Assembly (NCBI RefSeq): GCF_001281485.1
Contig: NZ_CP012669.1
Span: 2,449,501-2,513,500, forward strand
Direction of reading: 5' to 3'
DNA from: Altererythrobacter epoxidivorans
GTDB lineage: Bacteria > Pseudomonadota > Alphaproteobacteria > Sphingomonadales > Sphingomonadaceae
DNA: 64,000 nucleotides
In this document: positions 56,028 through 58,807 of the stretch, in pieces
How positions within the stretch are numbered: position 1 is the stretch's first letter
Layout: each line of letters starts with the position of its first letter
Position numbers and translations under genes: made by a program
Notes under the pieces: model-generated
The model's database searches: none
Told to the model about the DNA's origin: nothing
What the model saw: the letters and a program-made list of their open reading frames with translations, nothing else

Positions 56028-56611
56028 GCCTCGAGCTCCCCGAGGTCGCGCAGCGCGCCAAGAACCTGGAGCAGCGGCATTCCGAGCACGGTGAACTGGT
56101 CGCCTTCGATCGCGCTGAACAGCTGGGGGCCGAGAGCCTCGATCCTGAATACGCCGACGCAATGCGAAACTTCGGGCCATTCGGCATCGAGGTAATTTTC
56201 GATGAAGGCGTCGGACAATTCCCGCACATGCAGTTTGGAAAGCGCCGTGCCGCTCCATTCGCAGGTGTCGTCCCGCACCAGAGCGGCGCCGCTGTGCAGT
56301 TCCATTACCTTGCCGGAAAAGAAGCGGAGATGTTCGACTGCCTGTTCGCGCGTTTCGGGCTTGTCGAACCGGTGACCTTCGCAAACGACGAGGCTGTCAC
56401 TGCCAAGAACCAGCCTGCCGCCATGGACGGCGGCGATATCCGATGCTTTGGCTACGCTCAGCGCTTCGGCCACCTCGCCGGGCGCGGATCCGGCAAGTCC
56501 CTCCTCGACCGCGCGTTCGTCGATACCGGCCGGAATGCTTTCATATCGGACGCCGACAGCATCGAGCATGGCCCGCCGCGACGCGCTCTTGGAAGCGAGG
56601 ATGATGCTCAT
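56024..56611 (-). CDS. maf: Maf-type nucleoside triphosphate pyrophosphatase
   Basis: The 195-residue protein begins with the conserved Maf motif IILASKSASRRAMLDAVG and continues LVLGSDSLVVCEG and KPETREQAVEHLRFFSGK. Maf proteins hydrolyse canonical or modified nucleotides and affect septum formation. It overlaps ppsR and aroE by four bases each. Confidence 0.94.
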   Translation of the reverse strand: MSIILASKSASRRAMLDAVGVRYESIPAGIDERAVEEGLAGSAPGEVAEALSVAKASDIAAVHGGRLVLGSDSLVVCEGHRFDKPETREQAVEHLRFFSGKVMELHSGAALVRDDTCEWSGTALSKLHVRELSDAFIENYLDAEWPEVSHCVGVFRIEALGPQLFSAIEGDQFTVLGMPLLQVLGALRDLGELEA

Positions 56612-57456
56612 ATCGGCTTGATCCCCTGATCGCCTGCGCCGTCTTCACCGGAGGATCGCTGGTTGTAGAGCCTGATAGCGGCGGCGGCCGTCTCCTCGAT
56701 GGAGCGACGCGTCACATCGATCACCGGCCAGCCATTGTCGGCGAACATCCGCCGCGCATACTTGAGTTCGTCGCGCACGCGGTCGTCGTCGACATAGGCG
56801 GTTTCGGTATCCTCGTGCAGGCTGAGCAGCCGGTTGCGGCGGATCTGTACCAAGCGATCCGGCGCGGTGGTGAGGCCGATGACCAGCGGACGGCGCAGGC
56901 GGAACAGCGCATCAGGCGGGGGGCTTTCGACCACGATCGGGATATTGGCGGTCTTGAACCCGCGATTGGCGAGGTAGATGCTGGTCGGTGTTTTGGAAGT
57001 CCGCGAAACACCGGCAAGCACGATGTCGGCCTGTTCCCAGTTTTCCCAGCCGATCCCGTCGTCATGCGCGATGGTGAACTGGATCGCCTCGACCCGCTTG
57101 AAATAGGCTTCGTCCATCGTGTGCTGGCGCCCGGGACGGCCACGCGCTTCTTGCCCCAGTTGCGATTCCAGTGCCTCTGTCACGGCGTCGAGGGCGGGGA
57201 CGGCCGGAAGACCAAGTTGTCGACAATGTTCCTCCAGCCTGGCGCGCGTTTCGGCATTCACCAGGGTAAAGAGCACCAAGCCGGGATTCGCGGCAAGATC
57301 GGGCACGATCCTGTCGAGATGCTGGCGCGAACGGACCATGGGCCAGAAATGGCGGGTAACGTCGGCATCCTCGAACTGCGCGAGTGCCGCCTTGGCGATC
57401 ATCTCCAGCGTTTCGCCGGTGGAATCCGAGACGAGATGAAGGTGGAGGCGGAGCAT
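56608..57456 (-). CDS. ppsR: Pyruvate, water dikinase regulatory protein (DUF299)
   Basis: The bifunctional kinase/pyrophosphorylase regulates phosphoenolpyruvate synthase or PPDK. The 282-residue protein starts MLRLHLHLVSDSTGETLEMIAKAA and has the P-loop GVSRTSKTPTSIYLANRG. The start at 57456 is supported by homologue N-termini. The first gene on the minus strand from the putative origin, divergent from hemE. Confidence 0.95.
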   Translation of the reverse strand: MLRLHLHLVSDSTGETLEMIAKAALAQFEDADVTRHFWPMVRSRQHLDRIVPDLAANPGLVLFTLVNAETRARLEEHCRQLGLPAVPALDAVTEALESQLGQEARGRPGRQHTMDEAYFKRVEAIQFTIAHDDGIGWENWEQADIVLAGVSRTSKTPTSIYLANRGFKTANIPIVVESPPPDALFRLRRPLVIGLTTAPDRLVQIRRNRLLSLHEDTETAYVDDDRVRDELKYARRMFADNGWPVIDVTRRSIEETAAAAIRLYNQRSSGEDGAGDQGIKPI

Positions 57457-57790
57457 GTTTTGCGCGTTTGATCCCTGTCGCGAGGGGCTGTGGAGAACAC
57501 GGGCATAAACCACGGGAGAAACCTGCCGACAAGTTCGGGGATGAGTTCCATGCCCGCTGTTCGCCGTTTCACCAGCATGCTTACCGACAGAAACCGGTGT
57601 TTTCCGACAGGCTGGGGACAGTGGGGAAAAGTTTGACTCGACTCAGGCGATCCGGCGATTCGATGGCAAGCAAAACCCTGTTCATCGCGGGAGAAATCGG
57701 GCAGGGGCCTGCTGTCCCCGTAATCCACAGGGCCAACAGACTCCATAATCCTATTTAAAATATACTTTTATTATTGATTGGACTCCTCGA
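57457..57790. other. Putative chromosomal replication origin (oriC)
   Basis: This 334-base gap separates ppsR (minus) and hemE (plus). In Caulobacter crescentus and Rickettsia the origin lies next to hemE, and the genes on the other side have the same ppsR-maf-aroE-coaE-dnaQ order. The gap shows an AT-rich block (57741-57780, 8 of 40 G+C) and two DnaA-box-like 9-mers, each one mismatch from TTATCCACA: TAATCCACA (57721-57729) and, on the minus strand, TTCTCCACA (57497-57489). Repeated CCGACAG elements lie at 57584-57610. Box strength and helicase loading cannot be tested here. Confidence 0.7.
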
Positions 57791-58807
57791 ATGCCCGGCT
57801 TTCTCCTCGACACGCTGAAAGGAAAGCGCTCGGACAAGGTGCCCATGTGGCTCATGCGCCAGGCAGGTCGATACCTGCCCGAATATCGCGCCTTGCGGGC
57901 AGAGAAGGGCGGTTTCCTCGACCTGGTTTACGATAGCGATGCTGCGGCCGAAGTTACCTTGCAGCCGATCGATCGGTTCGGTTTCGACGGGGCAATCCTG
58001 TTTTCTGATATCCTGATCGTGCCGCATGCGATGGGGCAGGGGCTCGAATTCCTCGCCGGCGAAGGGCCCAAGCTTTCGCCCCGCCTGCTCGATGCCGATC
58101 TGGAAGGCTTCACCCCGCATCCCGAACGGTACGAGGCGGTGTACGAGACCGTGCGCAAATGCGTGGCGCGCCTGCCCGATGGTGTGACCATGCTCGGCTT
58201 TGCGGGCAGTCCGTGGACCGTGGCGACCTACATGGTGAACGGCGAGGGGAGCCGCGATCAGCATGATACGCGCGCGCTTGCCTATCGCGACCGCGGACGT
58301 TTCCAGGCGATCATCGATGCGATAACCGCCGAGACGGTCACCTACCTGCGTGGCCAGATCGATGCCGGGGCCGAAGCGGTGCAGTTGTTCGACAGCTGGG
58401 CTGGCAGTCTTGCCCCTGATGAATTCGAACGCTGGGTGGTCGCGCCCAATGCGCGGATCGTTTCCGAGCTGAAGCAATCGCATCCTGAAACCCCGATCAT
58501 CGGTTTTCCCAAGGGTGCAGGCGCCAAGCTGGTCGACTATGCCCGCGAAACGGGTGTCGATGCGATCGGCATGGACGAAACGCTCGATCCGGTATGGGTC
58601 AACGAGAACCTGCCCGACGGGATGCCCGTCCAGGGCAACCTCGATCCCTTGCTGCTGCTGGCAGGCGGTGAACCCCTGACTGAGCGGATCCGCTTCATTC
58701 TCGATACCTTTGCCGACCGCCCCCATGTTTTCAACCTCGGCCATGGCATCGGCCAACATACGCCGATCGAAAATGTCGAGCGGCTGGTGGCCACCGTCAG
58801 GGGGTGA
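57791..58807 (+). CDS. hemE: Uroporphyrinogen decarboxylase
   Basis: The 338-residue enzyme converts uroporphyrinogen III to coproporphyrinogen III. The N-terminal PMWLMRQAGRYLPEYR and the GFAGSPWTVATYMV, DSWAGSLAPDEF and GNLDPLLLL segments are diagnostic. It starts the plus-strand transcription from the putative origin. HemJ and Rho follow. Confidence 0.97.
   Translation: MPGFLLDTLKGKRSDKVPMWLMRQAGRYLPEYRALRAEKGGFLDLVYDSDAAAEVTLQPIDRFGFDGAILFSDILIVPHAMGQGLEFLAGEGPKLSPRLLDADLEGFTPHPERYEAVYETVRKCVARLPDGVTMLGFAGSPWTVATYMVNGEGSRDQHDTRALAYRDRGRFQAIIDAITAETVTYLRGQIDAGAEAVQLFDSWAGSLAPDEFERWVVAPNARIVSELKQSHPETPIIGFPKGAGAKLVDYARETGVDAIGMDETLDPVWVNENLPDGMPVQGNLDPLLLLAGGEPLTERIRFILDTFADRPHVFNLGHGIGQHTPIENVERLVATVRG

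Follow-up and report, generated by a model that had tools for sequence, protein, structure and literature searches.

The stretch of DNA analysed here, hereafter the window, covers 64,000 nucleotides of the Altererythrobacter epoxidivorans chromosome (2,449,501-2,513,500 of a single contig of 2,786,256 bases); five-digit positions are those of the window and longer ones are contig coordinates. Two divergent genes are encoded on either side of a 334-bp gap (57457-57790; contig coordinates 2,506,957-2,507,290). These are, on the left, ppsR (56608..57456, minus strand), coding for a COG1806/DUF299-type kinase/pyrophosphorylase (Pfam PF03618, E 2.6e-95), and, on the right, hemE (57791..58807, plus strand), coding for a uroporphyrinogen decarboxylase (Pfam PF01208, E 3.6e-110). 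Further genes follow ppsR on its strand, and Pfam assigned their products to the Maf, shikimate dehydrogenase (AroE), CoaE and RNase_T exonuclease families. The closest named relatives of this hemE are from Erythrobacter, in keeping with a member of the Sphingomonadales. A sequence-only reading of the window had placed the chromosomal replication origin in this gap, partly on the basis of hemE diverging from a ppsR-maf-aroE-coaE-dnaQ block; Pfam confirmed these families, the 'dnaQ' of that reading being the RNase_T exonuclease. The intergenic position between hemE and a COG1806/DUF299 gene, recognised by Pfam on both sides, is that of the alphaproteobacterial hemE-COG1806 origins, which is established for Caulobacter crescentus (Cori) and Rickettsia prowazekii (PMC1914354).

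Two 9-mers at one mismatch from the DnaA box had been announced in the gap, and both are present as described: a left box TTCTCCACA of the TT(G/C)TCCACA form (57489..57497, minus strand) and a right box TAATCCACA (57721-57729, plus strand), the latter preceded by a TCCCCG (57715-57720) with which it makes up the right DnaA sites (57715..57729). They are the only two boxes at one mismatch, and exact TTATCCACA is absent from the gap. Their number is above chance, since 2000 dinucleotide shuffles gave a mean of 0.04 such boxes, with two or more in 0.15% of the shuffles; boxes at two mismatches numbered four, against a shuffle mean of 0.69. Across 210 contiguous kb, 14 boxes were found at one mismatch or fewer, and no 340-base stretch other than the gap held two of them. 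The form of the left box, TT(G/C)TCCACA, is cited as the perfect DnaA box for actinomycetes of high G+C content, and two TCCCCA sequences (57613-57618 and 57622-57627, within 57613..57627, minus strand) correspond to the W-box consensus given for Caulobacter (both in PMC4285127). In an alignment of 50 gaps, TCCACAGG and most of the right-site block are conserved at 80% identity or more. The DnaA protein of this organism ends in GGRDHSTVIHAVR, which we take to be a normal-looking DNA-binding motif.

The right box is adjoined by an AT-rich block (57735..57785), recognised from G+C count and nearest-neighbour stability, which is a putative DUE (unwinding element). The 40-base block with 8 G+C mentioned by the sequence-only reading is real, with a minimum of 7 G+C. 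Indeed, 11 overlapping 40-mers with at most 8 G+C start within 57735-57746, and they are the only such 40-mers among the 568,947 in 570 kb of sampled DNA of the same genome, about one fifth of the chromosome. By nearest-neighbour stability, the block is the weakest 40-mer of this sample and ranks second among 60-mers, while lying outside the six weakest 100-mers listed.

The gap was compared with its counterparts in other genomes. Within the family, hemE was found in 58 of 59 genomes, and loci were taken from 48 of these, that of A. epoxidivorans included (30 plus 18, with 10 left out); further family loci came from the best 80 of at least 592 confirmed relatives. In the class, 98 of 115 genomes have hemE and 40 of these were used, one of which (L160) is counted in the class sample although it belongs to the same family. 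Divergent ppsR and hemE were present in 157 of the 168 loci examined; the 11 others, in which ppsR was not found (among them L085, whose locus ends short upstream), were dropped. The comparison set consisted of 121 family gaps, all distinct and including the one described here, and 36 class-sample gaps. Boxes at one mismatch or fewer averaged 2.16 per family gap versus 0.05 in the gaps read backwards, i.e. about 40-fold more (n=121), and two or more were present in 84 of 121 gaps and in none of the reversed controls. The class sample behaved similarly (2.5 versus 0.03 reversed), 23 of its 36 gaps holding at least two. DnaA boxes are therefore above chance both in the gap itself and in its relatives, with TCCACA present in 121/121 family gaps and 30/36 class-sample gaps; some gaps, e.g. 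L007 and L028, carry no box within one mismatch, and the 30 gaps first aligned include two such cases.

The family gaps form two groups. A first group of 58, mostly with Erythrobacter- and Novosphingobium-type names, has the layout of the gap studied here, and a second group of 63 (Sphingomonas, Sphingopyxis, Sphingobium and others) has another layout, with a GAGTCAA-CTGTTGGCAA block. Exact TTATCCACA occurs in 41/63 gaps of the second group versus 4/58 of the first. The split was made mainly by TCCACAG 40-130 bases before hemE, so that counts of TCCACAG within a group are not independent of it. Family origins thus keep their place and their DnaA and GANTC content, and the two groups differ in box strength and in their invariant elements.

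Five GANTC (CcrM) sites are present in the gap: three start at 57635, 57640 and 57657 (57635..57661) and two more at 57739 and 57781. The shuffle mean was 1.56, and 1.35% of shuffles reached five. Family gaps hold 4.88 GANTC on average versus 0.40-0.74 for three like motifs, with at least one in 121/121, and class-sample gaps hold 3.14 versus 0.58-1.47. This enrichment is not specific to the origin, because two other stretches of the same 570-kb sample (in L058 and L041) also reach five or six sites and because GANTC enrichment in intergenic DNA has already been published (PMC3973325). A single CcrM-type (RAMA) protein is encoded in the genome; among 14 control genomes, the same model matched only Caulobacter. 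GANTC methylation by CcrM may have a role at the gap.

Regarding other regulators of initiation, no strict CtrA site (TTAA-N7-TTAA) was found in the gap, and such sites are rare in the relatives (0/58 in the same group, 2/63 in the other family group and 3/36 in the class sample). The loose form TTWW-N7-TTWW occurs once per strand within the AT-rich block, where such sequence easily produces it. No IHF consensus (WATCAN5WTR) was found in the gap either, and an IHF site is present in 10 of the 58 gaps of the same group (one in the reversed control). The gap thus has neither the CtrA nor the IHF site of the CtrA-controlled Cori type. DnaA-trios of the BUS unwinding system were sought as three or more trios with a middle A within 16 bases of a box, following rules from PMC8287927. 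The trios were assumed to lie on a given strand with respect to the box. A run of four is present in the gap, but three or more were found in only 13 of 57 gaps (this one included) versus 44% of shuffles, and in 17 of 57 on the other strand; the relatives are not above shuffles, and a BUS-type system was not retained.

Between the left box and the centre of the gap lies a near-invariant element, ATAAACCACGG (57505..57515, plus strand), found exactly in 50 of 121 family gaps (25/75 from the best-80 set and 25/46 of the other family gaps, this one included), in 0/36 class-sample gaps and in none of the reversed-sequence controls. Its surroundings are rigid. Indeed, (i) the left-box core GTGGA lies just upstream in 44 of these 50 gaps, always 15-16 bases away, (ii) a GACAAG block (reverse CTTGTC; 57528..57533, plus strand), which is perhaps a weak DnaA site, follows 23 bases after the element and is present in 42 of the 50, with this spacing of 23 bases in 39 of the 42, (iii) the right box, found in 49 of the 50, comes a median of 219 bases after the element and 59-76 bases before hemE, and (iv) the distance from the element to hemE is 278-310 bases (IQR 283-286), whereas that to ppsR ranges from 13 to 150 in the 50 gaps. 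A role of ATAAACCACGG as the ppsR promoter is therefore disfavoured, the distance to ppsR being variable and those to hemE and the boxes nearly fixed. GCATAAACCACGG occurs exactly once in the A. epoxidivorans genome, as the gap copy, and at five sites with one mismatch or fewer (four for the pattern read backwards). Among the matches listed for the 59 genomes, 18 exact copies are in the ppsR-hemE gap and four are elsewhere (G017, G018, G024 and G047), so that the sequence is not confined to origins; the gap copy of ATAAACCACGG is assigned to the origin because of its rigid spacing. Separately, GCATGAACCACGG, which differs by one base from ATAAACCACGG, recurs once or more in many family genomes and is perhaps a conserved coding site.

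Since a small RNA, CcnA, is reported to be transcribed from the Caulobacter origin (PMC8959179), the gap could also, or instead, encode an origin-located RNA of this kind. This seems improbable: a comparison of 57000-58200 with Rfam yielded nothing at E values up to 1, and RNAalifold on ten windows of the 50 aligned gaps gave at best -0.4 kcal/mol, i.e. no shared RNA structure or Rfam family was found, although the folding test is weak because the alignment is gappy, and an RNA lacking conserved structure would be compatible with it.

The position of the gap as an origin was further evaluated from strand asymmetry, in the window and in 20 samples of 20 kb. GGGNAGGG and its complement switch strands somewhere within about 2.40-2.53 Mb, and a second time within about 1.05-1.18 Mb. 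In a change-point analysis of GGGNAGGG with dif as terminus, 107 of the 119 sites in 570 kb fit an origin at the gap and 12 disagree with it; this ties the best score, and the 2-lnL support interval is 2,489,000-2,507,000 (500-base steps). The strand-asymmetry switch is thus given by the GGGNAGGG change-point, with which GC skew is in broad agreement only: the skew averaged -0.012 over 13 left-arc stretches and +0.014 over 13 right-arc stretches, the window being left out. The cumulative GC-skew minimum that had been predicted at the gap was not observed, the local minimum in the 210 kb examined being at 2,410,742, about 96 kb away, where the curve is almost level. GC skew alone was therefore rejected as an origin locator, being locally too weak although of the correct sign on each arc.

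The 18-kb span of the support interval leaves some room for a gap that would be a mere double promoter for ppsR and hemE, with the origin elsewhere within about 20 kb, e.g. toward 2,489,000. Two genes diverging from a gap would be expected to have their promoters in it, and partial conservation was also seen in the hemJ-rho gap (22% of its A. epoxidivorans columns at 80% identity or more versus 34% in the ppsR-hemE gap; 19 sequences each). This explanation is very improbable, however, in view of the 40-fold excess of boxes in the family gaps, of the nearly fixed distance of ATAAACCACGG to hemE as opposed to ppsR, and of the uniqueness of the gap as a two-box stretch in 210 kb.

Markers of segregation and termination agree with an origin in the ppsR-hemE gap. 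Four parS-like sites (2,515,530, 2,515,568, 2,517,678 and 2,518,043) lie 8-11 kb from it. The genome holds 11 parS-like sites at two mismatches or fewer, of which only three have one mismatch or fewer, all among these four; the other seven, with two mismatches each, are scattered through the genome. The four sites stand amid trmE-, gidA-, gidB-, parA- and parB-like frames, of which ParB was checked with Pfam. In detail, the cluster (2,515,530-2,518,056; L057 2030-4556) lies shortly beyond the right-hand end of the window; part of it separates the trmE- and gidA-like frames and part falls inside the gidB-like one. The parB gene, which the sequence-only reading had named as another possible place for the origin, is about 12 kb from the gap and so forms part of one origin region with it. 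At 1,133,356-1,133,374 (L053), the dif pattern is matched perfectly, the only match in the genome at three mismatches or fewer; it lies about 19 kb from the antipode of the gap (about 1,114,000).

In many bacteria of other phyla, the origin is at dnaA, but such a location, a general rule there, can hardly be entertained here: dnaA (230,796-231,278) is 510 kb from the gap, the sampled stretches show no strand-asymmetry switch at it, and a search for a box cluster, which the sequence-only reading had named as contrary evidence, found one one-mismatch box in the surrounding 5 kb. Exact TTATCCACA boxes are uninformative genome-wide, because seven were found versus seven for the pattern read backwards. 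Their sole close pair (1,318,525 and 1,318,840) was not retained as an origin, as it sits inside one reading frame, presumably ligA.

In summary, the gene setting, the box enrichment, the AT-rich block, the fixed spacing in relatives, the asymmetry switch and the parS and dif positions are the basis for predicting oriC in the ppsR-hemE intergenic region (57457..57790), a prediction also consistent with conservation in the 121 family gaps. The gap is very probably the chromosome origin of A. epoxidivorans, and the sequence-only reading is supported on this point by the change-point, parS/parAB, dif and the boxes of the relatives. It lies where origins of this class are expected, and as an origin it is ordinary in kind and well supported in place. 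Once its origin is correctly placed, the genome can be read in replication coordinates.

Most probably, DnaA would bind at three places, namely the left box, the two weak TCCCCA sites in the centre and the right sites, and an oligomer starting at the last of these would extend to the AT-rich block that adjoins hemE. This block could then melt, probably in that direction, and allow helicase loading, after which two forks would leave, one through ppsR and the other through hemE. The kind of origin is already known from Caulobacter, Rickettsia and Sphingopyxis, and the clade-specific ATAAACCACGG element is the main point of interest. It might, tentatively, be the site of a non-DnaA, origin-specific protein limited to the Erythrobacter-Novosphingobium side, which, as part of a single rigid complex, would occupy the interval from the left DnaA box to the weak site that follows, and would replace CtrA or IHF in the control of initiation. 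The ATAAACCACGG element is not described in the titles and abstract openings of literature searched by topic rather than by motif, a search mostly outside subscription papers. Sphingomonas melonis is reported to be impaired neither in growth nor in viability by the loss of ctrA (PMC8116508). Through the contrast between the two family groups, the control of origins that lack strict CtrA or IHF sites becomes accessible to testing.

The comparison with Caulobacter origins that had been suggested confirmed the match of the setting with the hemE-COG1806 origin of Caulobacter and Rickettsia. In brief, the gap resembles the origins of C. crescentus and R. prowazekii in its two flanking gene families, its AT-rich block and its DnaA boxes (PMC1914354), and it resembles Cori in its weak TCCCCA W-box sequences (PMC4285127), its several GANTC sites (PMC3973325) and the linkage of the par locus to the origin (PMC4468827). 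It differs from Cori in having neither a strict CtrA site nor an IHF consensus, and its boxes TTCTCCACA and TAATCCACA differ from the Caulobacter box TGATCCACA. In Sphingopyxis granuli TFA, oriC is likewise located beside hemE, and a DUE as well as putative DnaA boxes that are conserved have been reported for it (PMC4741004). The three Sphingopyxis loci among those with record titles in the comparison set (L113, L114 and L117) belong to the other group and have no ATAAACCACGG, S. granuli itself being outside the comparison. A near-invariant GAGTCAAGCTGTTGGCAA block was also observed in Sphingomonas- and Sphingopyxis-type origins of that group (e.g. L097, L107 and L113), where, as L097 shows, the boxes point toward one another.
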